In this document: positions 3,193 to 18,761 of the stretch, piece after piece
Numbering within the stretch: position 1 is the stretch's first letter
Layout: the number at the start of each line of letters is the position of its first letter
DNA from: Streptomyces lydicus
GTDB taxonomy: Bacteria > Actinomycetota > Actinomycetes > Streptomycetales > Streptomycetaceae
Assembly: GCF_001729485.1 (NCBI RefSeq)
Contig: NZ_CP017157.1
Span: 4,278,001 to 4,342,000, forward strand
DNA length: 64,000 nucleotides
Reading direction: 5' to 3'
Notes under the pieces: generated by a model
What the model was told of the DNA's origin: nothing
Seen by the model: only the letters and a program-made list of their open reading frames with translations
Databases searched by the model: none
Made by a program: the position numbers and the translations under genes

Positions 3193-3414
3193 CCAGGCCC
3201 TGTGGAACCCGTCGAACGGGGCGCACGGGGCAGGGCCGCCCGCCTCAGTCTGTTGCACGCCCTCAGACTCGTCACCGGCCGCCGCACCGGCATCGTCCAC
3301 AGCCTATGGCGACAACATGTCACCCAGCTCCTGGACGAAACCGCGTGCGGCCTACGGCCCCGGCCTGCACGGTGTTCCACGAATCCGCGCCGGCCTTGTG
3401 GATCGGTGATGCGT

Positions 3415-3447
3415 GCTCCTCGCTCTCGTGGCGGGAGAGCGAGGAGC
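3415..3447 (-). terminator. Hairpin terminator of the GNAT gene
   Basis: A perfect 13-bp stem (GCTCCTCGCTCTC and its complement) with a 7-nt loop sits 9 nt beyond the stop codon of the minus-strand acetyltransferase gene. Confidence 0.7.
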
Positions 3448-3455
3448 CGGAGAGG

Positions 3456-4055
3456 TTACGGGATGTGGCTGGCGGTCGAGTACTGCGCCGCTTCGCCGGC
3501 CGGTCGGCGCCTCATCGGGATCTCGAAGTGCACGGTGGCGACGCCCGGGCCGTGTTCGCCGGTGGTCCGGGCGTCGAACACCTCCTCGGCCATGCTCCGC
3601 CAGAAGGTCTCCACGCCCTCGACGTTGACGTTGGTGTGGAGGTAGATGCTTTTGTAGCCGGGCATGTTCGCGATGATGTCGCAGGCCGTATGGACCAGGG
3701 TGCGGGCGAGGCCCCGGCGCCGGTGTTCGGGGTGTACGTAGACGCGAACCAATTGGGCAGTGGTTCCGCAGGGGTAGCGTTCGGCGAGCCAGCGCGGGTG
3801 AGGGGGATGAGCCGGGCCCGCGGACCGTACCCCGGTCGTGGCGACCACTTCGCCGTCGTGGACGGCGACGAGGAGCAGATGGCGGGGGTCGTCGAGGTAG
3901 GTGCCCTCGATGTCCAGCACGTCGTGGTGCCAGCGGGGCACGTAGCCGTATCCGAACTCGTGGTACAGCGTGTCCAGCATGATGCGGCGTGCGGGGTCCA
4001 CATCGGCAGGTGTCGCGGGGCGCACGGTGTATCCGCAATGTGCGGTCTCGCTCAC
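3456..4055 (-). CDS. GNAT-family N-acetyltransferase in the Zur-box locus
   Basis: 199 residues. The GTG start at 4055 is chosen because AGGAG lies just upstream on the minus strand, and the conserved family start (YTVRPATPADV) follows at residue 8. The acetyl-CoA-binding motif HRRRGLARTL, following VRVYVHPE, is in the middle of the protein, as in Gcn5-type N-acetyltransferases. The substrate is not apparent. A Zur-box-like palindrome lies about 110 bp upstream (4164-4178), so the gene is probably co-regulated with the hydrolase and the large operon at 5859-17271. It may acetylate an intermediate, or a toxic or immature form of that pathway's product; this is inference. A strong terminator closes the transcript. 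Confidence 0.85.
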   Translation of the reverse strand: MSETAHCGYTVRPATPADVDPARRIMLDTLYHEFGYGYVPRWHHDVLDIEGTYLDDPRHLLLVAVHDGEVVATTGVRSAGPAHPPHPRWLAERYPCGTTAQLVRVYVHPEHRRRGLARTLVHTACDIIANMPGYKSIYLHTNVNVEGVETFWRSMAEEVFDARTTGEHGPGVATVHFEIPMRRRPAGEAAQYSTASHIP

Positions 4056-4163
4056 GGTTTCTCCTGTCCGGCATGCGTTTCTGCGCTGCGCATGCGTCTG
4101 TGTGGCCGGCGTCGCGTGCGGGGCGGCACTGTCGTCGCGGCGCATGCCACCCTGGTAAATTTA

Positions 4164-4178
4164 TGAAAACGATTTTCA
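4164..4178. promoter_or_regulatory. Zur-box-like palindrome upstream of the GNAT gene
   Basis: TGAAAACGATTTTCA has perfect 6-bp arms around a 3-bp centre. It closely matches the actinobacterial Zur operator pattern TGAAAATGATTTTCA as I recall it. It lies between the GNAT start and the 3' end of the hydrolase gene, in position to control the GNAT promoter. A second, related box is at 5754-5768. Confidence 0.75.
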
Positions 4179-4200
4179 GGAAGCTGTTTCGCTCCCGCGT

Positions 4201-5691
4201 TCACGGCACGTCCGGCAGCCCGGGGCCGGTGCAGTTCACGTCCGCCTTCGGTGTCGTGCCGTGGACGAGATAGGCCGCCGCGGTGTTGTCCACGCATGCG
4301 TTGCCCCGGCTGGCGAACACGCCGTGCGAATAGTCCTTGTCGAGCGTGACCAGGCGCGAGCCGGGCAGTAGTCGGCGCAGTCGGCGTGCGCCCTCGATGG
4401 GGGTGACGGGGTCGTGTACGGAGGCCACCAGCAGTACGGGTGGAGCGTCGGGGCTGCCGAGTGGGGTGCGGCGGGCAGGCTTGTGGCGCCAGTAGGCGCA
4501 GGTGGGCGCCTCCATGCCGGTCAGGACCGGCTGCGGGTCGAGCTGGCGGGTGCGGTGGATGTCCGCCAGGATCCGGTGGGGTGTGGGGGCGGGGGAGTCG
4601 GCGCACTTGACGACGCGGTTCGCCGCCTCGTAGTTGCGTGAATCCGGGCTGTCGAAGGCGGTGGTGGGGCGGAGCCCGTCGGGGTGTCCGTCATTCAGGT
4701 AGTCGTGCAGGCCCTCGGCGAGGCCGACCCAGCGTTCGGTGCGGCCCAGTGCGCGGTAGACGGCACGGTCGAACTCGGCGGGCCCGAAGCCTTCCGCGGG
4801 GTGTCTGGTGAGTCCGTGGCGCACGCGCAGGTAAGCCCGGCGCGTGGCGGCCGCGCTCCCGCCGAGGCCGAAGCGGTCCGCGTGGGCGGCGGCCCAAGTG
4901 AAGAAGGTGTCGCGCTGCCGCAGCAGTGCGCGGCTCTGGATGACGTCGAAGTCGTACCAGTCCCACGGGCCCACGACGCTGTCGAGCACCATGCGGCCCA
5001 CGCGGTGCGGGAAGCGCGCGGCGTACGCGGCGCCGAGGTAGCTGCCGTAGGAGACGCCGAGGAAGCTCGTCCGGCGTTCGCCGAGTGCGGCGCGGATCGC
5101 GTCCATGTCCCGCGCCGTCTGTTCCGTGGACAGATGGGGCAGCGATTCGCCGGCGCCCGCGGCGCAGTCGTCGGCCAAGTTCCGTAGCGAGGTGAGGTAG
5201 TTCTTCTCTGCCGGCCTGTCTACGGGTACGGGGTTCGCGCCCGGGCTGGTGAAGAGGCCGCCCATCCGGCCGCAGTTCACGGGGGCGCTCTGTCCGACGC
5301 CACGGGGGTCGAAGCCGATGACGTCATACGTCCGCCGCACGCTCTCCGGGAGCTTGGCCCGCTTCGTGACCGCGTAGGAGAGTCCGGAGCCGCCCGGTCC
5401 TCCCGGGTTCACCAGCAGGATGCCGCGCCGCTCGCCGTGGGAGCCGGATGCGCGTATGCGTGACACGGCCATCTCGATGTGCGGCCCCCGTGGACGGTTC
5501 CAGTCGAGCGGGACCCGGAGCCGTCCGCACTCGACGTGTGTCGGGGCCGGCGGGTTCGGGAGGGAGTCAGGGCATGCGCCGAAGCGTAGAGGGGGCGTCG
5601 GGGTGGCGGCCTGGATCGGGCCGGCGGGGGCGAGGGTGGCGGCGGTCAGCACCGCGCACAGCACGGCGGTGCGGCGTAGGGGAGGGGTCAC
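4201..5691 (-). CDS. Secreted alpha/beta-hydrolase, tripeptidyl-aminopeptidase type
   Basis: 496 residues, starting at GTG 5691 behind GGAAGG. An N-terminal signal peptide (about 30 residues ending near IQAA) is followed by an alpha/beta-hydrolase fold. The oxyanion region NPGGPGGSG (about 94-102), the nucleophile elbow GVSYGSYLG and a C-terminal HDPVTPIEGA / DYSHG pair supply Ser, Asp and His. This is the layout of the Streptomyces SlpD/SlpE and tripeptidyl aminopeptidase group. It diverges from the ATP-grasp operon across a Zur-box-like site at 5754-5768, which should repress both. Possible roles are releasing amino acids from peptides outside the cell or processing the exported product of the operon. 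The role is inferred; the fold is clear. Confidence 0.85.
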   Translation of the reverse strand: MTPPLRRTAVLCAVLTAATLAPAGPIQAATPTPPLRFGACPDSLPNPPAPTHVECGRLRVPLDWNRPRGPHIEMAVSRIRASGSHGERRGILLVNPGGPGGSGLSYAVTKRAKLPESVRRTYDVIGFDPRGVGQSAPVNCGRMGGLFTSPGANPVPVDRPAEKNYLTSLRNLADDCAAGAGESLPHLSTEQTARDMDAIRAALGERRTSFLGVSYGSYLGAAYAARFPHRVGRMVLDSVVGPWDWYDFDVIQSRALLRQRDTFFTWAAAHADRFGLGGSAAATRRAYLRVRHGLTRHPAEGFGPAEFDRAVYRALGRTERWVGLAEGLHDYLNDGHPDGLRPTTAFDSPDSRNYEAANRVVKCADSPAPTPHRILADIHRTRQLDPQPVLTGMEAPTCAYWRHKPARRTPLGSPDAPPVLLVASVHDPVTPIEGARRLRRLLPGSRLVTLDKDYSHGVFASRGNACVDNTAAAYLVHGTTPKADVNCTGPGLPDVP

Positions 5692-5747
5692 GGGGCCTTC
5701 CAGAAGGGCTCGGCGAACAAGGGGGCGGCAAAGACCCGCCCACGAGA

Positions 5748-5772
5748 TGACAATGAAAATGATTATCGTTAA
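5748..5772. promoter_or_regulatory. Zur-box-like operator between hydrolase and metallophore-like operon
   Basis: The core TGAAAATGATTATCG (5754-5768) sits in the divergent promoter region, about 90 bp before the ATP-grasp start and 60 bp before the hydrolase start. On the other strand GATAATCATTTTCATTG also resembles a general Fur-family box. Among Streptomyces regulators the pattern fits Zur better than Nur (nickel), and iron control normally uses the different DmdR/IdeR box. Confidence 0.75.
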
Positions 5773-5858
5773 AGTGTGCGTCGGGCAAACCCGACCCCCT
5801 TCCTCCGAAGGGGCGTTCGGCTGCCCCGTACTCGAAGTCCAAGCCCGGAAGGGGAGTT

Positions 5859-7115
5859 GTGGCTCATCTGCTGGTGGTCGAGAGCTGGGTCGGAGCGATG
5901 AGCCGACTGCTGCCGCGGGCGATACGGGAGGGCGGGCACACCTTCACCTTCCTCACCCGCGACCTGCACCACTACCTGCGCTCCGCGCCCGAGGGGACGG
6001 CGCACCCGCTGCTCGGTGCCCGCAACACCATCACCGCCGAGACCAATGACACCGACGCCCTGCTGCCCGAAGTCGAGCGGCTGCATGCGGTGTTGGCGTT
6101 CGACGGAGTGATCACGTCCTGCGACTACTACCTGCCGACCGTGGCACGGATCGCCGGGCGGCTCGGCCTGCCGGGCCCCGGGTCCGAAGCGGTCGAGATC
6201 GCTTGCCGTAAGGACGCCACCCGCCGCGTCCTCGCCGATGCCGGAGTGCCCGGCCCGCGCTTCGCCGTACACGAGGAGTGGGCCGATCTCGCGGGCGCCG
6301 CCCGGGAGATCGGTTACCCGCTGGTGGCCAAGCCCGTTGACCTGTGCGCCGGCATGTACGTACGGCGTGTGGATGACGAGGTACAACTTGCCGATGTATA
6401 CCGGACGTTGGCGGACGTTCCGGTCAATGCGCGCGGACAGCGGCGCGCGCCTGTGGTCCTGCTCGAAGAGCTGCTGGACGGTTCTGAGGTGAGTGTCGAG
6501 ACCGTCTCGTGTGCGGGAACGGTCCACGTGGTCGGCGTGACCGACAAGAGCATCGGCGGGGCGCCCGCGTTCATCGAGACCGGCCATATGTTCCCCGCGG
6601 CCCTGACGCATGCCGACGCCGAGGCCGCCGAACAGACCGCGCTGCACGCCCTGAAGGCACTCGGGCTCGTCGACGGCGTCGTGGCGCACACCGAGATCAA
6701 ACTGACCGCCGACGGGCCGCGCGTGGTCGAGGTCAACCCGCGCCCCGCGGGTAACCGCATCACCGAACTGATCCGCCACGTCACCGGCATCGACCTCGCG
6801 GCGGCCTTCGTGGAGGTCGCGCTGGGCGGCCAACCCGAGCTGAGGCGTACGGACACCGGACTGCGCAGCGCAGCCATCGGATTTCTGGTGCCACAGGCCG
6901 CCGGCACGCTCGAAGCGCTGGACGGCGGCGAACTGCGGGACGCGCCCGGCGTGCTGGAGGTGCAGCTCACCGACCCCGGCAAGGTGGTGAAGGCGGCTGG
7001 CAGCAACAACGAGTACCTCGGGCACGTCATGGCCGGTGACGCCGACGGGCCAGGGGCCCGCGACCGCGTCGAGGCCCTGCTGGCCGGGCTGCGCGCGGGG
7101 CTGGTGATCCGATGA
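5859..7115 (+). CDS. ATP-grasp ligase, first gene of putative metallophore operon
   Basis: 418 residues from GTG 5859, preceded by GGAAGGGGAG. It has the ATP-grasp arrangement: a pre-grasp region with ITSCDYYLPTVARIA (about 85-100), a nucleotide-binding Lys in PLVAKPVD (about residue 157), and a Mg-ligand segment VVEVNPRPAGNR near residues 288-299. Such enzymes activate a carboxylate as an acyl-phosphate and join it to an amine. In this operon, with a PLP beta-substitution enzyme and an epimerase, it may couple amino acids into a dipeptide-like ligand. The stop codon overlaps the next start (ATGA), so the two genes are translationally coupled. Substrate is unknown. Confidence 0.85.
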   Translation: MAHLLVVESWVGAMSRLLPRAIREGGHTFTFLTRDLHHYLRSAPEGTAHPLLGARNTITAETNDTDALLPEVERLHAVLAFDGVITSCDYYLPTVARIAGRLGLPGPGSEAVEIACRKDATRRVLADAGVPGPRFAVHEEWADLAGAAREIGYPLVAKPVDLCAGMYVRRVDDEVQLADVYRTLADVPVNARGQRRAPVVLLEELLDGSEVSVETVSCAGTVHVVGVTDKSIGGAPAFIETGHMFPAALTHADAEAAEQTALHALKALGLVDGVVAHTEIKLTADGPRVVEVNPRPAGNRITELIRHVTGIDLAAAFVEVALGGQPELRRTDTGLRSAAIGFLVPQAAGTLEALDGGELRDAPGVLEVQLTDPGKVVKAAGSNNEYLGHVMAGDADGPGARDRVEALLAGLRAGLVIR

Positions 7116-7987
7116 CCGCCGTCACCGGGGCGGCCGGCGCGGTGGCGTACGAGAGGTGCCGGACGTACGCCGACCTCGTGGACCGCGTCCGTGCGGGCGG
7201 GCTGGGCCCCGACCCGGCCACGCAGCGGATCGCCGTGGCCTTCACCACCCGGCAGGCCGTACGGCACGACGGGCGCGGCACCGGTTATCGCAACGAAGTG
7301 CTCAGCCTGCGCCTGGCCGAGGCGGTCGGCTCCTGTGCGGTCGAGCCCGGCTCACTGCCCGACAGCGCGCTCGACGACTGCGTGGGCGCGGACGTGGCCC
7401 GGCTTCTGGAGCATCCGCTGCTGCCGATGCGGGTGGCCGCCCTGGACGCCTACCTGATGCACGTCACCCCGCACAGCCCGGAGAGCGGGGCGCGTCCCGT
7501 CCCGCTGCCCACCGGGTCGTCACTGGAGAAGTCCCGGGTGCGGGCGAAGGCGGTTGCCGAGCTGATCGACCTGCCGCCCGGGGCCACCGTGCTGGTGATC
7601 GGAGTCGTCAACTCCCTTCTGGAGGCGCTGCGTGCATGCGGCCTGCAGTATGTCCCGTGCGACCTCAAGGGCGGCGTCACCGAGTGGGGCGAGCCGGTCG
7701 TCACCGATGCGCTCGCGGCGGCCGACCGCTGCGATGCGCTGCTCGTCTCCGGAATGACGCTGGGCAACGGCACCTTCGAACCGCTTCGACGGCACGCGCA
7801 GCAGCACGACAAGCAGCTGGTGATGTTCGCGCAGACCGGCAGCGCCGTGCTGCCCCGCTTCCTCGGCCATGGCGTGAGCGCGGTGTGCGCCGAGCCGTAC
7901 CCCTTCTTCTGGCTCGACGGCGGGGCCGGAGTCGTCCACCGCTACAGGGGGCCGTACGACAACTCCTGTCAGGGAGGCCACATATGA
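7112..7987 (+). CDS. DUF364-like 'heavy-metal chelation' Rossmann protein
   Basis: 291 residues. The C-terminal half resembles DUF364 / DUF4213 proteins, which Pfam labels as putative heavy-metal chelation: a Rossmann-like segment VLVIGVVNSLLEALRA (about 149-164), the signature LLVSGMTLGNGTFEPL (about 210-225) and MFAQTGSAVLPRFL. The N-terminal part would be the small enolase-N-like domain. Biochemical function in the family is not well established; metal binding or a ligand-forming reaction is plausible. Overlaps the upstream ATP-grasp gene by 4 nt and the downstream PLP gene by 4 nt. Confidence 0.7.
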   Translation: MTAVTGAAGAVAYERCRTYADLVDRVRAGGLGPDPATQRIAVAFTTRQAVRHDGRGTGYRNEVLSLRLAEAVGSCAVEPGSLPDSALDDCVGADVARLLEHPLLPMRVAALDAYLMHVTPHSPESGARPVPLPTGSSLEKSRVRAKAVAELIDLPPGATVLVIGVVNSLLEALRACGLQYVPCDLKGGVTEWGEPVVTDALAAADRCDALLVSGMTLGNGTFEPLRRHAQQHDKQLVMFAQTGSAVLPRFLGHGVSAVCAEPYPFFWLDGGAGVVHRYRGPYDNSCQGGHI

Positions 7988-9081
7988 CCGCGACCGCCGT
8001 CCGCCCCGTCGCTCGCCCGGAGCTGCTCGCCCTGCTCGGCCGTACGCCGTTGGTGCGCATCACCGCTGATCTGCCGGGCCCCCACCCCGGATTCTGGGCC
8101 AAGCTCGAAGGGCTCGCAGCCGGCGGGATGAAGGCCAGGGCTGCCGTGTCGATGCTGAGGGGCGCCCGAGCACGTGGCGAACTGCGGCCCGGGGCACCGG
8201 TGGTGGAGTCCACCTCAGGCACCCTCGGCATCGGCCTGGCCTTCGCCGGGCAGGCGCTCGGGCACCCGGTCGTGCTCGTCGGTGACCGGGAACTGGAGCC
8301 GTCCATGAGGCAGTTGCTGTGTGCCCACGGAGTCCGCCTGGAACTTGTCGACCGCCCGGCCCCTGAGGGCGGCTGGCAGGCCGCTCGCCTCGCCCGACTG
8401 CGCGAGCTGCTCGCCGTGCTGCCCGACGCCTACTGGCCCGACCAGTACAACAACCCCGACAACACCGCCGGTTACGCCTCACTGGCCGCCGAACTCACGG
8501 CCCGGCTCGACCACCTCGACGTTCTGGTGTGCAGCGTCGGCACCGGCGGCCACAGCGCGGGCATCATCGGTCCCCTGCGGCGGCACTGGCCCGCCCTGCG
8601 CCTCATCGGTGTCGACGCGACCGGCTCCACGATCTTCGGCCAGCCCGCCCGGCCCCGGCTGATGCGCGGACTGGGCAGCAGCATCCACCCGCGCAACGTC
8701 GCCTACGGCGCCTTCGACGAGGTCCACTGGGTCGGCCCGACCGAGGCCGTGGACAGCTGCCGGCGGCTTGCCCGAGGGAGCTTCGTCAGCGGCGGCTGGA
8801 GCACCGGCGCGGTCGCCCGCGTCGCCGCGTGGGCAGCCCGCGTCCACCCCGGGGCGGAGGTCGCCACCGTCTTCCCCGACGGCCCGCACCGCTACCTCGG
8901 CACCGTCTACGACGACGACTTCACCGCCGCGCACGGCCTCGCCCCGTCCGCCGCGGCCGCCCGACCCGTCGAGATACCGCACCCCCGAGCGGCCGAGGCC
9001 GCCGGGTGGGTCCGCTGTACCCGCATCACCGACCCGCTCCGGGCACCCGAATCCCCGCATCCTTCGGAAGAGAGACTGTGA
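7984..9081 (+). CDS. PLP-dependent cysteine-synthase-fold enzyme
   Basis: 365 residues. It has a fold-type II beta-substitution enzyme signature: LGRTPLVRI near the start, the Schiff-base Lys in GGMKARAA (Lys50), a substrate loop ESTSGTLGIGLA, and the phosphate-binding loop GTGGHSAG. The canonical SVKDR is changed to GMKAR, and GNTG to GTLG, so the substrate is probably not plain O-acetylserine plus sulfide. SbnA- and AesA-like relatives make 2,3-diaminopropionate precursors for staphyloferrin B and EDDS, which makes an amino-acid building-block role attractive. A C-terminal extension of about 40 residues follows the catalytic domain. RBS GGGAGG precedes the ATG; 4-nt overlaps with both neighbours. 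Confidence 0.85.
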   Translation: MTATAVRPVARPELLALLGRTPLVRITADLPGPHPGFWAKLEGLAAGGMKARAAVSMLRGARARGELRPGAPVVESTSGTLGIGLAFAGQALGHPVVLVGDRELEPSMRQLLCAHGVRLELVDRPAPEGGWQAARLARLRELLAVLPDAYWPDQYNNPDNTAGYASLAAELTARLDHLDVLVCSVGTGGHSAGIIGPLRRHWPALRLIGVDATGSTIFGQPARPRLMRGLGSSIHPRNVAYGAFDEVHWVGPTEAVDSCRRLARGSFVSGGWSTGAVARVAAWAARVHPGAEVATVFPDGPHRYLGTVYDDDFTAAHGLAPSAAAARPVEIPHPRAAEAAGWVRCTRITDPLRAPESPHPSEERL

Positions 9082-10133
9082 AGGCCACCCAGCGCACCGT
9101 ACGCCTCGACCTCGCCGAGCCGTTGCGCATCTCCCGCTCCACCATGGCCGCCCGCGACGCCGTGTGGCTGACCGTCGAACACGACGGGCTGCGCGGCCAC
9201 GGCGAGGCCGTCACCAGCGTCTACTACGGCCTCGACGCCGGCACCCTCGAACGGCTCCTCGCTGCCGTCGCCACCGACCTCCTGCGCTTCCGCGACCCCG
9301 AGAGCGCCCTGGCCACCCTGCGGGCGGGCGAACTGGCGGGGGAAGACACCCCGCCGGCCGTCACCGCCGCCGTCGAGTCCGCGCTCCTCGATCTCGCCGG
9401 CAAACACGCCGGCAGCCCGGTCCACCGGCTCCTCGGCGCCGCCACCGCCCCGGTGGCCGCAACGGCCCGCACCATCGGCATCACCTCGCCGGTGCGCGCC
9501 GCGGCCGAGGCACGATGCCTCACGGCGAGCGGCTTCGAGGTCATCAAGGTCAAGGCGGGGGCGCCCGACCCCGAGGAGGACGTGGAGCGGGTGCGCGTCA
9601 TACGTGACGCCGCGCCCCGGGCCCGGCTGCTCCTCGACCCCAACGGCGCCTGGACCACGGCCCAGGCCGACGCCCTGCTGCCCTGGTTCGCGGAACTCGG
9701 AGTCGAGGCTGTCGAACAGCCCCTCGCTCCCGGCGATCCGGAGGCGCTCGGCGCGCTCGCCGCACGCTCACCACTGCCGGTCATCGCCGACGAGGACGCG
9801 GTGAGCCTGGAGGACGCCCGCCGCCTGGCCGGACGCGTGCACGGTGTCAACGTCAAGCTCGCCAAGTGCGGCGGTGTTCACGCGGCCCTGCGCATCGCCG
9901 AGGCGATCGACGGCAGCGGCACCGCGCTGATGCTCGGCTGCCTCACCGCCAGCAGCCTCGGCCTCGCCCCGGCCATCCACCTGGCCGACCGCGCCCGCTG
10001 GGCCGACCTCGACGGACACCTGCTGCTCGCACGCGACCCGTGGACCGGGATCGGCGGCACGGACGGCTTCGTACGGGCAAGCGATCTGCCCGGTCTGGGA
10101 GTCCGGCGCAGCCCGGGGGAGGAGGGGGCGTGA
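9078..10133 (+). CDS. Enolase-superfamily enzyme, dipeptide-epimerase-like
   Basis: 351 residues from the GTG at 9078, overlapping the previous stop. Residues match the muconate-lactonizing / Ala-Glu epimerase group: a KxK pair (Lys157, Lys159), metal ligands Asp187, Glu213 and Asp238, and the opposing catalytic Lys260, with family-typical spacing. A DLDGHLLL segment near the C-terminus also fits. Such enzymes remove and return an alpha proton, commonly racemising one residue of a dipeptide. Here it would set stereochemistry in an ATP-grasp-made product. This recalls the separate histidine racemase (CntK) of staphylopine loci, which is a different protein family. Confidence 0.88.
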   Translation: MKATQRTVRLDLAEPLRISRSTMAARDAVWLTVEHDGLRGHGEAVTSVYYGLDAGTLERLLAAVATDLLRFRDPESALATLRAGELAGEDTPPAVTAAVESALLDLAGKHAGSPVHRLLGAATAPVAATARTIGITSPVRAAAEARCLTASGFEVIKVKAGAPDPEEDVERVRVIRDAAPRARLLLDPNGAWTTAQADALLPWFAELGVEAVEQPLAPGDPEALGALAARSPLPVIADEDAVSLEDARRLAGRVHGVNVKLAKCGGVHAALRIAEAIDGSGTALMLGCLTASSLGLAPAIHLADRARWADLDGHLLLARDPWTGIGGTDGFVRASDLPGLGVRRSPGEEGA

Positions 10134-11389
10134 AGATCTGGCACGAGATGCGCCGATTCCCCCTGGCCGTCCGCCTCCTGCTGGTCAACCAGCTCGGTGT
10201 CAACACCGGCTTCTACCTCCTCATCCCCTACCTCGCCACCCACCTCAGCCAGAACCTGGGCATGTCGGCGGCTGTCGTGGGGATCGTCCTCGGCGTCCGC
10301 AACCTCAGCCAGCAGGGCCTGTTCCTCATCGGCGGCTCCGCCTCCGACCGGCTCGGCGCGCGCGGCGTCATCATCGCCGGCTGCGCCCTGCGCACCGCGG
10401 GGTTCGCGCTGTTCGCGCTGGGCGACGGGCTGACCGTACTGCTCGCCGCCTCCGTGCTCAGCGGACTCGCCGGCGCCTTGTTCAACCCGGCCGTGCGCGC
10501 CTACCTCGCACAGGAGGCGGGCGAGCGCAAGGCGGAGGCGTTCGCCCTGTTCAACGTCTTCGCCACCACCGGCGCGTTGATCGGTCCGCTGCTGGGCAGC
10601 GCACTGCTGCTCGTCGACTTCCGCACGTCCGCGCTCACCGCCGCCGGCATCTTCGCCGTCCTCACCGTCGCCCAGGCCGTTGTCCTGCCCGCGCGCAAGG
10701 TGGAGCCGAGGGAGGGCGGCGTCCTCGCCGACTGGCGTGAGGTCCTCGGCAACCGCGCCTTTCTGGCCTTCGCGCTCGCCATGGTCGGCATGTTCACCCT
10801 GCAGAACCAGCTCTACCTGCTGCTGCCCGACGGGGCCCGGCGGACCACCGGCTGGGACGGCGCGGCGGGCCTCGTCTTCCTCGTCGGCACCGTCACCAAC
10901 CTCACCCTGCAACTGCGCATCACACGCGCCCTCAAAGGCCGTGGATCCAGGGCGCGTTGGATCTCAGTCGGGCTCGTTGTGATGGCGCTGTCCTTCCTGC
11001 CGCCGGCGCTGGTGGCAGGCGGGTCCGGCGCCCCGGACGGCACCGCCGACGCGGTGCTGCGCACGCTGCCCGTCCTGCTCGGTGCGCTCCTGCTCTACCT
11101 CGGCGTCATGATCGCCCAGCCTTTCGTGCTGGAGCTCATCCCCGGATTCGGCCGTACGGAGCTGACCGGCACCTACTACGGGATCTTCTACGTGGTCTCC
11201 GGCATCGCCGCCGCGGTCGGCAACACCGCCGTCGGCTGGTCCATGGACACCGGGGAACACGGCGCCCCCTGGCTGCCCTGGGCGTGCTGCGCCCTGTTCG
11301 GCCTCGCCTCCGCATGCGGCGTGGCCTGGCTGCACCGGCGCAACGCGCTGCCGACGACGCCGAAGCCGGCCCTGACGGCGGCGGCCTGA
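10130..11389 (+). CDS. MFS transporter, probable product exporter
   Basis: 419 residues from GTG 10130, overlapping the epimerase stop codon and preceded by GGGGGAGGAGG. About 12 hydrophobic segments are visible. The MFS loop motif appears as GGSASDRLGARGVIIAG after the second segment. Position among biosynthetic genes and ahead of an importer suggests it exports the apo-ligand, as CntE does in staphylopine loci. It could instead be a drug exporter. Confidence 0.88.
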   Translation: MKIWHEMRRFPLAVRLLLVNQLGVNTGFYLLIPYLATHLSQNLGMSAAVVGIVLGVRNLSQQGLFLIGGSASDRLGARGVIIAGCALRTAGFALFALGDGLTVLLAASVLSGLAGALFNPAVRAYLAQEAGERKAEAFALFNVFATTGALIGPLLGSALLLVDFRTSALTAAGIFAVLTVAQAVVLPARKVEPREGGVLADWREVLGNRAFLAFALAMVGMFTLQNQLYLLLPDGARRTTGWDGAAGLVFLVGTVTNLTLQLRITRALKGRGSRARWISVGLVVMALSFLPPALVAGGSGAPDGTADAVLRTLPVLLGALLLYLGVMIAQPFVLELIPGFGRTELTGTYYGIFYVVSGIAAAVGNTAVGWSMDTGEHGAPWLPWACCALFGLASACGVAWLHRRNALPTTPKPALTAAA

Positions 11390-11401
11390 GGAAGGAGACG
11401 A

Positions 11402-12244
11402 ATGACCCGCACCGCCACCGAGGACATGGACAACCTGCTCACCGACAACCCCGAGCTGTACGAGGCCCGTTTTCCCGACGCCGACCGGCTGGCCGGACGC
11501 TGGACGGAGGACTGCCTGCGGCGGTACGGCGCGGGCCCGCGGGTGCTGGACATGGGCTGCGGCACCGGCCGTGACGCCGCCCATCTGCACGCCGTCGGCC
11601 GAATGGTGACCGGCGTCGACCTCTCCGAGGCGATGCTCGCCCATGCCCGCGCCCACCACCCCGGGCCCGCGTACGTCCGTGCCGACCTGCACGGCTTCGA
11701 CCTGGGCCACAGCGCGTTCGACGCGGTCGTCTGCCTGGACAGTTCCTTGCTGTACTGCCACACCAATGCCCAGCTCGACGGCTTTCTGGCCTCCTGCCGT
11801 CGCGCGCTGACCCCGGGCGGCCTGCTCGTCGCGGAGATGCGTAACGGCGCCTATTTCCTGGGCCGTACCGACCTGCTCGACACCCCCACCGTCCACCAGT
11901 TCGCCTGGCAGGGCACCGCCTACCGGTCCACCACCACGCTCACCGTGGACCGCACCGCCCAACTCCTGCGCCGAACCCGCGTATGGACCGCGGATGACGG
12001 ATCACCGCCCGTCGAACAGCGCTCCGCATGGCGGCTGCTCTTCCCGCTGGAACTCCGCCGTCTCCTGGCGGCGCACGCCTTCGAGGTCCTCGACCTGCAC
12101 GACGGTCCGGGCCCGCGCACCGAGCCGCCCTGGCGAGAAGGCATGCCCCCTGGCGATGCGACCGATGCCGACCGGCTGCACGTCGTCGCCCGGCTCACCG
12201 AGCCCGCACCGTGCCCCCTTCACACCACGAGGACACCCGCATGA
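11402..12244 (+). CDS. Class I SAM-dependent methyltransferase
   Basis: 280 residues with RBS GAAGGAG 5 nt before the ATG. The SAM-binding motif I is VLDMGCGTGRDAA (about 49-61); the motif II acidic residue is in VTGVDLSEAML and motif IV is FDAVVCLDSSL. The rest matches small-molecule methyltransferases with a C-terminal beta-sheet cap. Likely modifies the pathway product by N-, O- or C-methylation. Overlaps the following lipoprotein gene by ATGA. Confidence 0.85.
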   Translation: MTRTATEDMDNLLTDNPELYEARFPDADRLAGRWTEDCLRRYGAGPRVLDMGCGTGRDAAHLHAVGRMVTGVDLSEAMLAHARAHHPGPAYVRADLHGFDLGHSAFDAVVCLDSSLLYCHTNAQLDGFLASCRRALTPGGLLVAEMRNGAYFLGRTDLLDTPTVHQFAWQGTAYRSTTTLTVDRTAQLLRRTRVWTADDGSPPVEQRSAWRLLFPLELRRLLAAHAFEVLDLHDGPGPRTEPPWREGMPPGDATDADRLHVVARLTEPAPCPLHTTRTPA

Positions 12245-13848
12245 ACGAAGAAACCGCCCGCCACCTCGCCTCCCCGGCCGTACCTTCCTTCCCGGGCCTG
12301 CGCCGCCGCGGCTTCCTCGCCGCCACGGGTGCCGCCTCGCTCGGCGCACTCGCGCTCACCGGTTGCGGCGGGCCCGGCTCCGAGGACGGCACGGGCAAGG
12401 GCGACGGCCGGCCCCGACGGGGCGGCCGGCTGCGCGCCGCCTTCGCCGGAGGCGGCGCGAGCGAGACCCTCGACCCCCACCTGGCCAACCTCTTCGCCGA
12501 TGTCGCCCGTGCCAAGGCGCTCTTCGACAAGCTCGCCGACTACGGTGCCGACCTGTCCGCGCAACCCCGCCTCGCCGAGAAGTGGCAGGCGAACAAGGCC
12601 CTGGACCGCTGGCAGGTCACCCTGCGCAAGGCCACCTTCCACAACGGCAAGCCGGTCACCGCCCAGGACGTCCTGTACAGCTACCGCCGGATCGCCGACC
12701 CCAAGAAGGGGTTCCGCGCCAAGGCGTCCCTGGAACCCATCGACCTCGACGCGAGCCGCGCCACCGGCAAGCGGAGCCTGGAGTTCGTTCTCAAGCGCCC
12801 CACCGCCGAATTTCCGAACATCCTGGCCGCGTTCGGCGCGTACATCGTCCCCGAGAAGGCGACCGCCTTCGACGAGAAGCCGATCGGCTCCGGCCCCTTC
12901 CGCTTCGTCTCCTTCGCCCCCGGCCGCTCGGCCGTCCTCCGTCGCTACGACGACTACTGGGAGGGCGCCCCGCACCTCGACGAGATCGAGTTCGTCGTCG
13001 CCAACGAGGAGTCCGCCCGCGTCAACGCACTCCTCGGCGGACAGGTCGAGTACGCGCACGAACTCGACCCGACCACCGCCCGCGCGCACGAGGGGAAGGG
13101 ACAGATCGAGATCGTCCGGCTGCGCAACAGCGCCATGCAGGGCTTCGCGATGAAGACCGACCGGGCCCCGTTCGACGACAAGCGGGTGCGCCAGGCGTTC
13201 TTCCTCATCGCCGACCGGAAGGAGCTCGTCGCCGGCGCCCTGTCCGGTGCCGGCGAGATCGGCAACGACCTGTTCGGCAAGGGCTACGAGTACTACGCCG
13301 ACGGCCTCCCCCAGCGCGAGCAGGACCTGGGCCGCGCCCGCGCCCTGCTGAAGCAGGCCGGCGCCGAGAAGCTCAAGGTCACCCTCGACACCTCGGCCGT
13401 CGCCGCCGGATTCACCGAGGCCGCCAGCATCTTCCGCGACCAGGCCGCCAAGGCGGGCGTCACCATCGACGTCAGGACGGGCAGCAAGGACACGTACTGG
13501 AGCGACATCCTCGACTCCGGCACCCTGTGCTGCTACCGCTCCGGAGCCATGCCCATCGAGGCCCACCTCTCCCAACGGCTGCTGACCGACTCCACCACCA
13601 ACGCCACCGAGTGGCACCACAAGGACTTCGACGCCCTCTACCAACAAGCGCAGTCCACCCGCGACACCAAGGACCGGGCGGCCGTCTACGCACGCATGCA
13701 GCGCCGCCTTTACACCGAAGGCGGCTTCCTGATCTGGGGCTTCGCCGACTGGATCCTGGGAACGGCCCGTGAAGTGCGAGGAGTTGACCGGAAGGCGCCC
13801 GCCAACACGCTCGACTGGGCCCGGTTCGACAAGGTGTGGCTGGCGTGA
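12241..13848 (+). CDS. Solute-binding lipoprotein, peptide/nickel ABC family
   Basis: 535 residues from ATG 12241. The N-terminus contains a Tat-like RRRGFLAAT and a lipobox LTGC with the lipidated Cys at residue 42. The mature part is an SBP family 5 (OppA/DppA/NikA/CntA) domain: KWQANKALDRWQVTLRKATF early, IGSGPFRFV in the middle, then a long C-terminal lobe. CntA-type members bind metal-metallophore complexes. With two permeases and a double ATPase downstream it forms a complete importer, probably for the metal-loaded product of this operon. Confidence 0.88.
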   Translation: MNEETARHLASPAVPSFPGLRRRGFLAATGAASLGALALTGCGGPGSEDGTGKGDGRPRRGGRLRAAFAGGGASETLDPHLANLFADVARAKALFDKLADYGADLSAQPRLAEKWQANKALDRWQVTLRKATFHNGKPVTAQDVLYSYRRIADPKKGFRAKASLEPIDLDASRATGKRSLEFVLKRPTAEFPNILAAFGAYIVPEKATAFDEKPIGSGPFRFVSFAPGRSAVLRRYDDYWEGAPHLDEIEFVVANEESARVNALLGGQVEYAHELDPTTARAHEGKGQIEIVRLRNSAMQGFAMKTDRAPFDDKRVRQAFFLIADRKELVAGALSGAGEIGNDLFGKGYEYYADGLPQREQDLGRARALLKQAGAEKLKVTLDTSAVAAGFTEAASIFRDQAAKAGVTIDVRTGSKDTYWSDILDSGTLCCYRSGAMPIEAHLSQRLLTDSTTNATEWHHKDFDALYQQAQSTRDTKDRAAVYARMQRRLYTEGGFLIWGFADWILGTAREVRGVDRKAPANTLDWARFDKVWLA

Positions 13849-14798
13849 GGGGACTGCGCTCCTTCGTCGCCCGGCGGCTGCTCCTCGGCGTCGCACAGAC
13901 CGTGGCCGTCGTGCTGCTGGTCTTCGCGCTCACCGAGGCGCTGCCGGGCGACGCCGCCGTCGCCCTCGCCGGCGACCAGCCCGACCCCGCCCGTATCGCG
14001 GCCCTCCGCGAGGCCATGCACCTCGACCGGCCGGCATACGAGCGGCTGGCCGAGTGGGCGGCGGGCCTGTTGCACGGTGACTTCGGCACCTCCGTGACCT
14101 CCGGACGGCCCGTCAGCCAGTACCTCGCCGACGGCTTCGGGCCGACCCTGCTGCTGGCCGCGCTCACCGTGGCACTGCTCGTCCCGGCCGGCTTCGGCCT
14201 CGGCGTACTGGCCGCCCGCCACGAAGGGCGACTCGTCGACCGGCTGATCAGCTCCGTGACGCTCGCGGTCCACGCGGTTCCCGAATTCGCCCTCGCGGTG
14301 CTGCTGGTGGCCGTCTTCGCCCTCCACCTGGGCTGGCTGCCGGCCACCGCCGTCGGCTACGGCACCGACCTGCTCGCGCACCCCGCAGCGCTGCTCCTGC
14401 CCGTCCTCGTACTGCTCGCCCGGCCGGTGTGCTCGCTGGCCCGCCTGGTCCGCGCCGGCATGGTCGATGCCCTGGCCGCGCCGTATGCGGTGCACGCCCG
14501 CCGCTACGGAGTCGGCGGCGCCCGCGTCCGCTACGCCCACGCCCTGCCCAACGCCCTCGCTCCGGCCGTCCAGCAGCTCGCCCGCACCATCGACTGGCTG
14601 CTGAGCGGCGTCATCGTCGTGGAGGCCCTCTTCGTGATCCCCGGACTCGGCACCGTCCTGCTCAACGCCGTCGCCGAACGCGACGTACCGGTGGTGCAGG
14701 GCCTCGCCGTGGTGTTCGGCGTCCTGACCGTCGTGCTCAACCTCGGCGCCGACCTGGTCACCCACCGACTCGCACCCCGAGCGGGGGTGGCCGCGTGA
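13845..14798 (+). CDS. DppB/NikB-type ABC permease
   Basis: 317 residues from GTG 13845, overlapping the SBP stop. It begins with the family signature RRLLLGVAQTVAVVLLVFALTE-type first membrane helix, has about six membrane segments, and an EAA-like region near YGVGGARVRYAHALPNALAP. It ends with VVEALFVIPGLG and QGLAVVFGVL, as in Opp/Nik B permeases. Pairs with the next gene. Confidence 0.88.
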   Translation: MRGLRSFVARRLLLGVAQTVAVVLLVFALTEALPGDAAVALAGDQPDPARIAALREAMHLDRPAYERLAEWAAGLLHGDFGTSVTSGRPVSQYLADGFGPTLLLAALTVALLVPAGFGLGVLAARHEGRLVDRLISSVTLAVHAVPEFALAVLLVAVFALHLGWLPATAVGYGTDLLAHPAALLLPVLVLLARPVCSLARLVRAGMVDALAAPYAVHARRYGVGGARVRYAHALPNALAPAVQQLARTIDWLLSGVIVVEALFVIPGLGTVLLNAVAERDVPVVQGLAVVFGVLTVVLNLGADLVTHRLAPRAGVAA

Positions 14799-15661
14799 CC
14801 CGCACGCCCTCCTCGCAGGTCGCCGGTTCCTGTGCGGTCGTCCGACCACGCCGCGCGGGCCGCTACGCCCTCGGGCTCGCCGTCATCTCCGTACCGCTCG
14901 CCCTCGCCGTCCTGGGACCGGTGTGCGCAGACGACCCGGGCACGCGGGCCGCCTCCTTCACCCTCGGCGACGGACACTGGTTCGGCACCGACTTCGTGGG
15001 CCGTGACGTGTGGCGTCAGGTCCTGCTCGGCGGCCGGCCGGTGGTGCTGACCGCGCTCGCCGCGACGGCCCTGGCCTACCTCGTGGCGCTGCCCCTCGGC
15101 CTCATCGCCGCGCTCACCCACCGTCGCTGGCTGGAGGAGACACTGATGCGGCCGCTGGACGTGGTGCTGGCGGTGCCGTCCCTGCTGCTGATCCTGCTGG
15201 TGGCCTCCGTGCTCACACCGGGCGCCGTCGGGCTCGCCCTGCTCGTCGCGCTGGTCAATGTCCCGGACGCGGCGCGGATCGTGCGCGCGGCCGCCGCCGA
15301 GGCCGCGGCGCGCCCCGCGGTCGAGGCGCTGCGCATGCAGGGCGAGACGTGGTGGCGCACGGCCGTCGGTTACGTCGGCCGCTCGATACTGCGCACCATG
15401 GCCGCCGACGCCGGCACCCGGCTCACCGGCGTGCTGTACCTCGTGGCCACGGCAGCGTTCCTCGGCGTCGGCGTCGTGCCGGACGCCGCCGACTGGGCGG
15501 TGATGGTGGACCGCAACCGCACCGGACTGTTCGTGCAGCCCTGGGCCGTGGTGGTGCCCGCGCTGCTGATCGTCGCGCTGACCACGGGCAGCAACCTGCT
15601 CTTCGACGCGGCACTCCACAAGCCCGGCCGGCGCCGGGGAGAGAGGAAACCACGGCCGTGA
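14795..15661 (+). CDS. DppC/NikC-type ABC permease
   Basis: 288 residues from GTG 14795, overlapping the previous stop. The N-terminal HWFGTDFVGRDVWRQVL motif is diagnostic for the C-type permease of Opp/Dpp/Nik transporters. Five to six membrane helices follow, with an EAA-like loop around AVEALRMQGETWWRTA. Forms the membrane channel with the preceding permease. Confidence 0.88.
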   Translation: MTRTPSSQVAGSCAVVRPRRAGRYALGLAVISVPLALAVLGPVCADDPGTRAASFTLGDGHWFGTDFVGRDVWRQVLLGGRPVVLTALAATALAYLVALPLGLIAALTHRRWLEETLMRPLDVVLAVPSLLLILLVASVLTPGAVGLALLVALVNVPDAARIVRAAAAEAAARPAVEALRMQGETWWRTAVGYVGRSILRTMAADAGTRLTGVLYLVATAAFLGVGVVPDAADWAVMVDRNRTGLFVQPWAVVVPALLIVALTTGSNLLFDAALHKPGRRRGERKPRP

Positions 15662-17271
15662 CCGACCGGAACGATACGACTGCACCGACGGGCGCAGACA
15701 CCGGTGACGGGCCGGCCCCCGTCGCGGAGATCCGGGACCTGCGTGTGGAGATCGACGGTCGGGTGATCGTGGACGGCGTGCAGTTGCGGGCTCTGCCCGG
15801 CAAGGTGACTGCGCTGGTCGGAGCCTCCGGCAGCGGCAAGACCACCACGGGCCTCGCCCTGCTCGGCGCGTACCCATCGGGTGCCCGGGTCACCGGCGAC
15901 GTCCGCGTGGCGGCGGACGGCCCGGTCGGATACGTGCCTCAGCATCCGGCGTCCGTGCTCAACCCCGCCCGCCGGGTCTCGGCGCTGCTGACCGACATCG
16001 CCCGCACCCAGGTGCGCGACCTGCCCCGCAACCAGCGCCGGGCGGCCGTCCGCGAACGCATCCTGCGGGCTCTGTCGGACGCTCAGCTCGCGGACGGTGA
16101 GGCGCTGTTGTCGCGCTATCCGCACCAGCTGTCCGGTGGCCAGCAGCAGCGCGTCGTCCTCGCGCAGGCGCTGCTGCTCGGTGCCCGCGTCATCGTCGCC
16201 GACGAACCCACCACCGGCCAGGACGCGCTGACCAAGGCCCGCATCGTCGACCAGCTGGCAGCGCTGGCGGCACGCGGCATCGCGGTCGTGCTGCTCAGCC
16301 ATGATCTCGACGTGGTGCATGCACTGGCCGACGAGGTCCTTGTCATGCGGGCGGGCCGGGTCGTGGAATCGGGCCCGGTCCAGCGGCTGTGGCGCGCACC
16401 GCGTCACGAATGGACCCGACAACTGCTCGATGCCCGGCCGTCGCCCACCGGGCACGAGCCTCCGCAAGACAGCGGACAGGCAGTGCTGCACGTACGCCAT
16501 CTCACCGCGCGCCACCGCGACGGCGTCATCGGTGCCGGTGTGGTGCTACGAACCCCGGAACTCGCCCTGCACCCTGGTGAGTCGCTGGCTGTCGTCGGCC
16601 GCTCAGGCAGCGGGAAGACCACCCTCGCCCGCTGCCTGGCCGGGCTCCATCGTGACCACGACGGCCAGGTGCACCTCGACGGCACCGCGCTGCCGCGCAG
16701 CGTACGGCACCGCAATCGCGCAGAGTTGGCGGCCGTGCAGTACGTCTTCCAGGACGCGCGGGCCGCCTTCGACGAGCACTGCCCCGTCCTTGACCAGGTC
16801 GCCCGCACCGCGGTACGCCTGCGCGGCACCGATCATCTGTCGGCCGCTCAGGAAGCTCTGACAACACTGATCAGCCTCGGCCTCCGGCCCGAAACGACCC
16901 ACCGTCTCCCCTCGGAGCTCTCCGGCGGCGAACTCCAGCGGGCGGCCCTGGCCCGCGCCCTGTTGGCCCGGCCCCGGGTCCTGATCTGCGACGAGATCAC
17001 CTCGGGTCTCGACTCGGTCACGCGCCGCGGCATCCTCGACTCGCTTGCGGTTCTGCTCCGCGACCGTCCGGACATGTCCCTCATGCTGATCACCCACGAC
17101 CTGGAGACCGCACGTCTGGCCCACCGCATCGCCGTACTGGACGCGGGCGAGCTGGTCGAACAGGGCCCGGCCCACCGGATACTGACCGAGCCGCGGCACC
17201 CGTTCACCGTCTCACTCATGGAGACGACGGCACGCCTGGCGGCGGAGACTGCCCCGCCGGGAGCCTGGTGA
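15658..17271 (+). CDS. Fused double ABC-transporter ATPase (DppD+DppF type)
   Basis: 537 residues from GTG 15658. Two complete nucleotide-binding domains lie in one chain. Domain 1 has Walker A GASGSGKTT (about 58), signature LSGGQQQRV (about 158) and Walker B VIVADEPTTG. Domain 2 has Walker A GRSGSGKTT (about 315), signature LSGGELQRA (about 421) and Walker B VLICDEITSG. In most Opp/Nik systems, and in CntDF, these are two proteins. It is the last gene of the operon. I see no clear terminator before the relic at 17302. Confidence 0.9.
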   Translation: MTDRNDTTAPTGADTGDGPAPVAEIRDLRVEIDGRVIVDGVQLRALPGKVTALVGASGSGKTTTGLALLGAYPSGARVTGDVRVAADGPVGYVPQHPASVLNPARRVSALLTDIARTQVRDLPRNQRRAAVRERILRALSDAQLADGEALLSRYPHQLSGGQQQRVVLAQALLLGARVIVADEPTTGQDALTKARIVDQLAALAARGIAVVLLSHDLDVVHALADEVLVMRAGRVVESGPVQRLWRAPRHEWTRQLLDARPSPTGHEPPQDSGQAVLHVRHLTARHRDGVIGAGVVLRTPELALHPGESLAVVGRSGSGKTTLARCLAGLHRDHDGQVHLDGTALPRSVRHRNRAELAAVQYVFQDARAAFDEHCPVLDQVARTAVRLRGTDHLSAAQEALTTLISLGLRPETTHRLPSELSGGELQRAALARALLARPRVLICDEITSGLDSVTRRGILDSLAVLLRDRPDMSLMLITHDLETARLAHRIAVLDAGELVEQGPAHRILTEPRHPFTVSLMETTARLAAETAPPGAW

Positions 17272-17301
17272 AGCCCACCGCCGGGTCACGCGCATCGAAA
17301 A

Positions 17302-17700
17302 TCAGGCGGCGTCCGGCAGTGCCAGCCATTCCTGCCAGGACAGGTCCCGGCCGACGAAGCATGGACGCTCAAAGGGCCACTCGTCAGTGATCCACCGCGG
17401 GATCAAGGTGTCGAGGGCGTGCTCCAGCGCGGTTCCCACGCGCGGTCGTCCACGACCCACCAGGAAATCTCCGCGTCGAAGCCCGCCTTGCGCGCCGGGT
17501 CGATGTAGACGCAGCCGAGCAGGGCGTGCCCGCGTCGTCGAACAGGGCGTAGTTGAAGGACTCGTGCGCCGCAATCTCCCTCTCGGCAGACGTATCGAGG
17601 CCGGGCGCGCCGGGTCCGGGCACTCCGCGTGTCCTGGGGTCCGGTCACGATGGGCAGCCGGGTCCGGGGGTACCCAGGCATGATGAGGAAGAAGCCTGTC
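17302..17700 (-). pseudogene. GNAT acetyltransferase relic with frameshifts
   Basis: Three minus-strand frames join into one acetyltransferase C-terminal half. FNYALFDDAG comes first, then GCVYIDPARKAGFDAEISWW, then WPFERPCFVGRDLSWQEW ending LALPDAA at the stop 17302-17304. The reading frame changes at least twice and no intact N-terminus is present. It lies directly behind the metallophore-like operon but shows no functional tie. Confidence 0.75.
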
Positions 17701-17752
17701 TTGCTGGCGACCGGTGCCGGGACAAGGCGCTCTTGTCCGGGAAGGCGCGGTG

Positions 17753-18761
17753 ATGGCACCTACGGATCCCATCGCAGGCGGTCGCCCTGGCGGCCCGCCA
17801 CCTGAGGCGTTCGGCGACACCGTGGACCTGAACCTTCTGTTTGCCCAGGCACCCATGGGCTTGGCTGTCTACGACAGGGCGCTTCGGGTTCTGCGGGTCA
17901 ACGCGACACTCGAACGTCTGTGCGGGACCCAGGCTGATCAGGTGCTGGGCAAGTCGATCGGTGAATTCTTTCCCACGCATGACGCCGCCTGTTTGACCGA
18001 GCTCTTGGGCACGGTCCTGGAGACAGGCATTCCTGTGGTGACCACGGTACGTCTGACCGTGACAGGAGGTGAGCACGAGGAAGTCTGCTCCCTCTCCGCT
18101 TTCCGTCTGGCTGACTCGAGCGGCGGGACGGTAGGAGTAGCCACCGCCGTCTTCGACCTCGGTGCGCGGCCGACGCCGGGGAGCCGTGAGCGGCTGGCCC
18201 TGTTGGAAGAGGCCACCGCGCGGATCGGCTCGACTCTGGAAGTCGTCCGGACGGCGGAGGAACTGTCCCAGCGCTCCGTACGCCCAGTGCCTGGCCTCGG
18301 GCAAGCCGCTGCTGATCCCGGTGCTGGACCAGGCCGCGAGCCGGCTGGCCCAGGAGCCCGAGCGCGCCGCCAAGATCCTGGGTGCCGGCGCCCACTCGGT
18401 GATGACGGTGCCGCTGCGGGCGCGCGAGACCACGCTGGGCCTGGCGCATTTCTACCGCTGGCAGTTGCCACAGCCCTTTGAACCGGACGATCTGGCCTTG
18501 GTCCGCGACCTCGTCGCACGCGCTGCGGTCTGCATCGACAACGCCCGTCGCTACACCCGCGAGCACCACGCCGCGCTCACCCTGCAGCACTCCTTGCTGT
18601 TGCGGGACGCCGTACCGTCGCGTTGCTCTCTGGAGACCGCGCACCGCTATCTGCCCGCCTGCACCCATGCGGGCGTGGGCGGCGACTGGTTCGACATCCT
18701 CCAGCTCTCCGGTGCCCGCGTCGGCGTGATCGTCGGCGACATGACAGGCCGGGGAATGTAG
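17753..18761 (+). pseudogene. PAS-GAF-PP2C (SpoIIE/RsbU-type) phosphatase relic
   Basis: From ATG 17753 a PAS domain reads well (NLLFAQAPMGLAVYDRALRV and onward), followed by the usual linker RERLALLEEATARIGSTLE. Near 18275 the frame changes and part of the GAF domain is missing. The second frame continues with GAF residues (HSVMTVPLRARETTLGLAHF) and the start of the PP2C domain (HAGVGGDWFDILQLS, VGVIVGDMTGRGM), then stops at 18759-18761 before most of the phosphatase domain. Intact Streptomyces homologues are multi-domain regulators of anti-sigma-factor antagonists; this copy cannot be active. Confidence 0.8.

Follow-up and report, generated by a model that had tools for sequence, protein, structure and literature searches.

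A candidate Zur-controlled zincophore locus without a non-ribosomal peptide synthetase in Streptomyces lydicus

Within a 64-kb stretch of the Streptomyces lydicus chromosome (positions 4278001-4342000; the genome is a single contig of 8.2 Mb; hereafter the window), ten co-directional plus-strand genes (5859-17271) form an apparent operon that combines small-molecule biosynthesis with export and import. An earlier sequence-only reading had described this gene set, and inspection of the sequence and its open reading frames, together with Pfam searches, recovered all ten genes in the families it had named. The first encodes an ATP-grasp enzyme of the L-amino-acid-ligase type (5859-7115; PF13535, PF18603 and PF18130), which is followed by a DUF364 protein, annotated as putative heavy-metal chelation (7112-7987; PF04016), a pyridoxal 5'-phosphate (PLP)-dependent beta-substitution enzyme resembling CysK2 and SbnA (7984-9081; PALP family), an enolase-superfamily enzyme of the dipeptide-epimerase type (9078-10133; PF13378 and PF02746), a major facilitator superfamily (MFS) exporter (10130-11389; PF07690) and an S-adenosylmethionine-dependent methyltransferase (11402-12244; PF13649). 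The remaining four genes specify an ATP-binding cassette (ABC) importer, namely a family 5 solute-binding protein (SBP) of the Nik/Opp type (12241-13848; PF00496, 255.7 bits), an OppB/NikB-type permease (13836-14798, with an alternative start at 13845; PF00528), an OppC/NikC-type permease (14795-15661; PF00528) and a fused double ATPase (15658-17271; two PF00005 stretches). Most of these genes overlap, the sole gap noted being one of 12 bp before 11402. Pfam matched no adenylation, condensation or carrier domain of non-ribosomal peptide synthetases (NRPSs) in the ten operon proteins, and no IucA/IucC-type synthetase of the NRPS-independent siderophore (NIS) kind. Likewise, in agreement with the earlier reading, no Pfam or NCBIfam match to a nicotianamine-synthase-like protein or an opine dehydrogenase was obtained among the locus proteins at expect values (E) up to 0.001, nor did these proteins match the models TIGR03944, PF02423 or PF02784 for an SbnB-type dehydrogenase or a PLP-dependent decarboxylase.

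Two Zur-box-like palindromes, also claimed in that reading, accompany these genes. Both are 15-bp elements of 7-1-7 architecture: TGAAAACGATTTTCA (4164-4178) lies upstream of a GNAT acetyltransferase gene, and TGAAAATGATTATCG (5754-5768) in the promoter region common to the operon and a divergent hydrolase gene. They deviate from TGAAAATGATTTTCA by one and two mismatches respectively and are the only places in the window within two mismatches of it, a number of matches equalled in none of 100 shuffles. In the whole genome just one further place qualifies at this threshold, at the 5' end of znuA, where a second, adjoining site shows three mismatches. This znuA gene sits in a recO-uppS-fur(zur)-znuBCA neighbourhood recognized by Pfam; of the four Fur-family genes in the genome, the one adjoining znuBCA is called zur on the basis of this neighbourhood alone. 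A scoring matrix was built exclusively from znuA promoters (52 sites from 26 genomes, four of the 30 znuA loci searched being left out: L096 and L097 with split frames, L085 and L094 wrongly oriented or started). Over 63,986 window positions it ranked the two palindromes first (28.9, GNAT box) and second (16.8, operon box), the next site scoring 8.6. Both boxes depart at one specified base from the Streptomyces coelicolor Zur chromatin-immunoprecipitation consensus tGaNNatSatNNtCa quoted in an excerpt of PMC5472717. No iron-type (DmdR) box was found within the 64-kb window.

The operon box forms the spacer between predicted -35 and -10 hexamers (ATGACA-17-TAAAGT, 5747-5775, plus strand), the only sigma-70-like match in 3400-17600, where 0.3 are expected from shuffles; a repressor occupying this box would presumably obstruct RNA polymerase. 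This arrangement recurs in other streptomycetes. Relatives of the ATP-grasp protein at E up to 1e-60 are found in 40 of 150 Streptomyces genomes, the present one included, and in a phylum-wide sample of 396 genomes nine gave matches with E no higher than 1e-40, those with at least 71% identity all belonging to Streptomyces. We compared the window with 38 fetched relatives (one of the 39 other genomes, G099, was left out), and refer to these 39 loci as type A. All ten genes are present in order in 33 of the 38 relatives, preserving the logic of making, exporting and re-importing a product that the sequence-only reading had recognized; among the five incomplete relatives, two (L053 and L056) stop at a contig end. 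In 37 of the 39 loci, the 250 bp preceding the ATP-grasp gene contain the best znuA-type site of the entire locus, against 0.53 expected by chance (a value computed with an earlier matrix that still held L085 and L094), the exceptions being L047 and the window itself, in which the GNAT box scores higher. Scores of at least 13 are reached in 34 of the 39 ATP-grasp promoters and, elsewhere in the loci, at just one of 772,799 positions, which is the window's own GNAT box; in 80 control loci of another PLP-MFS gene pair, described below, four have such a site. The promoter element TGACAATGAAAA is kept in 28 of the 39 loci. As judged from sequence, Zur control of the operon is strongly supported.

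The biosynthetic enzymes belong to families with definable chemistries. The ligase combines its ATP-grasp domain with LAL_C2 (PF18603, 53 bits against a cut-off of 29.4), the combination that marks L-amino-acid ligases, and its best solved relative, 3vot, is such an enzyme. The DUF364 protein is a member of its family by fold and by score, passing the PF04016 gathering threshold, and its closest named relatives come from Streptomyces; a structure paper of 2010 is said to have presented DUF364 proteins as putative enzymes of heavy-metal chelation, with no reaction assigned. Aligned with 3iji, 4gfi, 3jva and 3rit, the enolase-type enzyme, which falls below the cut-offs of the named equivalog models, retains the KxK motif, the second lysine, the metal ligands and the DxD motif, all with recognized roles in dipeptide epimerases. 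Of the dipeptide-like product proposed in the sequence-only reading, it is the dipeptide-type ligase and epimerase that these families support; a dipeptide would be their predicted product. The PLP enzyme scores best with the NCBIfam model for SbnA (TIGR03945; 241.8 bits, below the curated cut-off of 349.95), has SbnA as its best solved relative and retains the equivalents of SbnA Lys47, Arg132 and Tyr152, residues named in an excerpt of PMC12414870. Beyond its own clade, it is nearest to mycobacterial CysK2-type enzymes (55-60% identity). These family features place it in the SbnA/CysK2 fold group of beta-substitution enzymes and predict O-phosphoserine as its substrate. It differs from SbnA of staphyloferrin B biosynthesis in its sub-threshold score, at the Ser185 position and in its context, the operon having no SbnB or NIS synthetase match.

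The nearness to CysK2 raises the question of whether the PLP enzyme acts in the same way, producing S-sulfocysteine or another sulfur amino acid, in which case the product of the operon would be either a metabolite of redox stress or a zinc ligand of the thiol or sulfonate type. The genomic neighbourhoods of CysK2-type genes bear on this. A related MFS gene adjoins the PLP gene in seven of nine fetched mycobacterial loci (family f3, L120-L128, the two others being L125 and L126). A scan with the PLP alignment confirmed at least 572 stretches; in the best 80 of these (L138-L217, all from Streptomyces, stretches up to 15 kb), which represent another PLP clade, an MFS gene directly follows the PLP gene in every case, its product being 41-58% identical to the MFS protein of the window. 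In Mycobacterium tuberculosis, excerpts of PMC10470581 and PMC10956863 describe lpqS-cysK2-Rv0849-Rv0850 as co-transcribed and place cysK2 and Rv0849 in the RicR copper regulon. Such pairs resemble the window operon in their adjacent PLP (55-60% identical) and MFS genes, but no relative of the ATP-grasp, DUF364, epimerase or methyltransferase genes was seen in the best 80 stretches, importer-like relatives lie near few of them, and their best Zur-type site is away from the promoter. The four further enzyme genes, the four importer genes and the Zur-type operator of the operon are all lacking in the CysK2-MFS pairs, and the lysine loop of the window enzyme reads MKARAA against MKDRPA in the CysK2-type family, so that we regard a CysK2-like function as quite improbable. 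From the identity values and gene order, the operon looks like an old PLP-MFS make-and-export pair that would have been extended by the ligase, DUF364, epimerase, methyltransferase, importer and Zur-type operator.

In 45 of the 80 Streptomyces pairs, a pattern search revealed a conserved leader with a core of about TGGCG..TAGRCC, some 80-276 bp ahead of the PLP gene. By eye it corresponds to the end of a short upstream open reading frame (..RWRI-stop) and is perhaps an attenuator; Rfam searches of three loci gave no match to it. In L138, a match to the cobalamin riboswitch at positions 1150-1331 (32.8 bits, cut-off 31.5) is separated by about 5.7 kb from the CysK2-type PLP gene and is probably unrelated to it.

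Having both an MFS exporter and a Nik/Opp-type ABC importer inside the biosynthetic operon suggests a product that leaves the cell and returns. The SBP has a twin-arginine lipoprotein-like N terminus as read from the sequence. That the SBP, one permease pair and the ATPase score best with nickel models, together with the presence of four Fur-family genes in the genome, could mean that the ligand serves nickel or cobalt, with Zur control being incidental or the regulator being another Fur-family protein. However, the operator was recovered by a matrix that draws solely on znuA promoters, and the Nik/Opp-type importers of the staphylopine system carry zinc-opine complexes as well; we consider this alternative very improbable.

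The same economy of synthesis, export through an MFS protein and re-import by a Nik/Opp-type ABC system characterizes the staphylopine and pseudopaline (cnt) loci, which employ a nicotianamine-synthase-like enzyme and an opine dehydrogenase. The window operon lacks a match to both of these defining enzymes, and is therefore not a member of the staphylopine type; its importer proteins also score below the model cut-offs. Coelibactin is an NRPS product, whereas no NRPS match was found in the operon. What the two share is Zur-type control in Streptomyces, an excerpt of PMC6103462 listing the coelibactin cluster of S. coelicolor as a Zur-controlled metallophore cluster.

A further comparison is with the aminopolycarboxylates ethylenediamine-disuccinate (EDDS) of Amycolatopsis japonicum and EDHA of Streptomyces scabiei, with which the operon has in common a biosynthesis free of NRPSs and, for EDDS, Zur-type control. 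EDDS is given in an excerpt of PMC4993170 as Zur-controlled and neither an NRPS nor a NIS product, and its gene cluster is cited in a passage of PMC9248904 on diaminopropionate precursor genes. The sequence-only reading had held the operon enzymes to be unlike those for EDDS. Given the CysK2-type affinity of the PLP enzyme, its best score with SbnA and the citation of EDDS beside diaminopropionate genes, that enzyme may not be wholly unlike its EDDS counterpart; the contrast stands for the SbnB-type dehydrogenase and the decarboxylase, neither of which was matched at the locus, their expected presence in an EDDS-type pathway following from the citing paper and the chemistry. These similarities would also fit an operon that belongs to the EDDS/EDHA family outright and makes a zinc or iron ligand by the same chemistry, but the ligase, epimerase and methyltransferase would then be additional to it. 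The possible appearance of such a locus is illustrated by L126 (6340-13691; an f3 locus from Mycobacteriaceae), in which genes for a PLP enzyme (59% identical to that of the window), an SbnB-type dehydrogenase, a LysA-type decarboxylase and a MatE exporter stand side by side. A multicopper oxidase gene is found beside them, so that the locus resembles an EDDS-like pathway to an aminopolycarboxylate in the vicinity of a copper gene. Membership of the window operon in this family is, in our view, highly unlikely. Overall, its predicted enzyme set matches none of the known zinc-scavenger pathways compared, and searches covering open-licence PubMed Central papers listed none that points to the ten-gene operon.

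Taken together, we think it likely that the operon represents a zincophore locus of a new class, controlled by Zur and free of an NRPS, by which a small amino-acid-derived zinc ligand is made, exported and re-imported. The sequence itself shows the palindromes and how they are conserved, the order of the genes and the families of the enzymes; zinc binding, zinc uptake and the structure of the product are what we infer. Under this proposal, zinc-loaded Zur would block the operon promoter, and the operon would be switched on when zinc is scarce. The PLP enzyme would then couple the serine skeleton, supplied by O-phosphoserine, with an amino nucleophile to yield a unit of the diaminopropionate type, on which the DUF364 protein would act next. 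Peptide-bond formation would fall to the ATP-grasp ligase, epimerisation of the resulting dipeptide to the enolase-type enzyme and capping to the methyltransferase, producing a small dipeptide-like chelator. This ligand would leave the cell through the MFS protein, and its zinc complex would return through the Nik/Opp-type ABC system. Least certain in this scheme are which nucleophile is used, what DUF364 catalyses and which metal is actually carried. A different use of a zinc-chelating dipeptide can be envisaged, namely as an antibiotic or metalloenzyme inhibitor that is induced by zinc starvation and directed against neighbours, with the ABC system recycling peptides instead of zinc. The ligase and the PLP enzyme do have solved relatives from antibiotic pathways, BacD and CmnB among them, and a gene for a probably secreted hydrolase is found at the promoter in 19 of the 38 relatives. 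Yet a complete importer, which an antibiotic locus would not need, is part of the same operon in 33 of them, and the operator matches that of znuA. We therefore judge the antibiotic explanation unlikely.

Several observations weigh against the zincophore proposal. On the import side, the SBP reaches 156.5 bits with the NikA-type model (cut-off 600), the permeases 214.5 bits with Opp2B (cut-off 350) and 127 bits with Opp2C (cut-off 300), and the ATPase, which scores best with the NikD, CntF and CntD models, is below their cut-offs too. With respect to the chemistry, glycine occupies the position of SbnA Ser185 in the PLP enzyme, and the nucleophile may not be an amine, since CysK2 is known from titles and excerpts of the literature as an S-sulfocysteine synthase. 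Regarding regulation, the loose published consensus TGANNATSATNNTCA with one mismatch occurs at 98 genome sites per strand, compared with 20 for a reversed control pattern, and as it proves little by itself we did not rely on it; the right half of the operon box deviates from the ideal palindrome, in the relatives as well, and L047 has only a weak site (5.5). Finally, L030, L045 and L047 are devoid of part of the downstream genes despite lying away from a contig end, and the type A relatives, all being of one genus, are not independent of each other.

A second lineage of DUF364 loci, which we term type B, having seen no name for it in print, provides a comparison from outside this set. Its DUF364 proteins are 38-40% identical to that of the window, 27 of the 150 Streptomyces genomes have a relative of them with E no higher than 1e-70, and its loci contain genes for DUF364, a GHMP kinase, a PALP-family enzyme, an MFS protein and a FecCD-type importer. 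Our sample comprises 22 loci (L132, L133 and L246-L265), that is 20 fetched from the 27 matches, L132 (from G088, also among the 27) and L133 (from G475). All 22 have the PALP gene, 19 FecCD, 17 MFS and 18 the GHMP kinase, which comes right after DUF364 on the same strand in 16 of these 18. A Zur-type site scoring at least 13 is present in 21 of the 22 (L260 being without one), and five loci score 30.1, exceeding both window boxes. Where an MFS gene is present, the best site falls between -400 and +100 bp of its aligned start in 13 of the 17 loci. Another three have it 104-169 bp within an alignment that begins early in a query of excessive length, while in L246 a second site of equal score is found near the MFS start. 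In L261, L262, L264 and L265, DUF364 and the site are 1.2-7.0 kb apart. Type B loci thus resemble the window operon in uniting DUF364 with an O-phosphoserine-type PALP enzyme, mostly an MFS gene and a Zur-type site, the PLP proteins of both types carrying the O-phosphoserine residues in alignment. They differ in that the GHMP kinase mostly replaces the ATP-grasp ligase and epimerase, the importer is of the FecCD type, the MFS protein is another one and the PALP enzyme is only about 30% identical. The two types co-occur in one of 150 genomes against 7.2 expected (P 0.0012, uncorrected for phylogeny), and in this sole genome the type A copy, L047, is without the methyltransferase and importer. 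Signature genes of one type or the other are found in 66 of the 150 genomes. Since Zur-type sites accompany both lineages even though their importers and partner enzymes differ, DUF364 and the O-phosphoserine-type PLP enzyme appear to constitute a zinc-related core. We give about even chances to the broader idea that DUF364 proteins are signature enzymes of an NRPS-free zincophore superfamily, each beside an O-phosphoserine-dependent PLP enzyme, with at least two mutually substituting Zur-controlled lineages across those 66 genomes.

If these proposals are correct, soil bacteria would possess a new and directly testable route to zinc, and many streptomycetes would use a class of ligand likely to escape genome-mining rules designed around NRPS, NIS or opine enzymes. 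DUF364 would gain a testable function, the CysK2-MFS pair of the mycobacterial copper regulon would be tied to metal-ligand biosynthesis, and metal chelators from a short enzymatic route would be added to those known.

Two minus-strand genes flank the operon on its upstream side: that for the GNAT acetyltransferase (3456-4055; PF00583, 54.7 bits) and that for the TAP-like alpha/beta hydrolase (4201-5691; PF00561 and PF08386), which is probably secreted, having a signal-peptide-like N terminus as read from its sequence. The sequence-only reading counted both in a locus spanning 4055-17271, an interval that begins at the GNAT start codon and leaves the GNAT gene just outside. They are indeed present here, but optional elsewhere, the hydrolase gene being upstream in 19 and the GNAT gene in six of the 38 relatives; the former is likely to be a frequent and the latter an occasional accessory. 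In L047, L049, L051 and L057 the GNAT gene is directly at the operon promoter, and in L027 the GNAT gene is preceded by a weaker znuA-type site (10.9), which lies about 1.64 kb before the ATP-grasp gene and echoes the GNAT box of the window. In another actinobacterial family, relatives of the ATP-grasp (41%) and PLP (38%) proteins are encoded by adjoining genes (L129). Downstream of the operon, at 17714-18761, a shortened PAS/GAF/phosphatase-like frame (SpoIIE-type by eye) is split over two reading frames and resembles a decayed gene.

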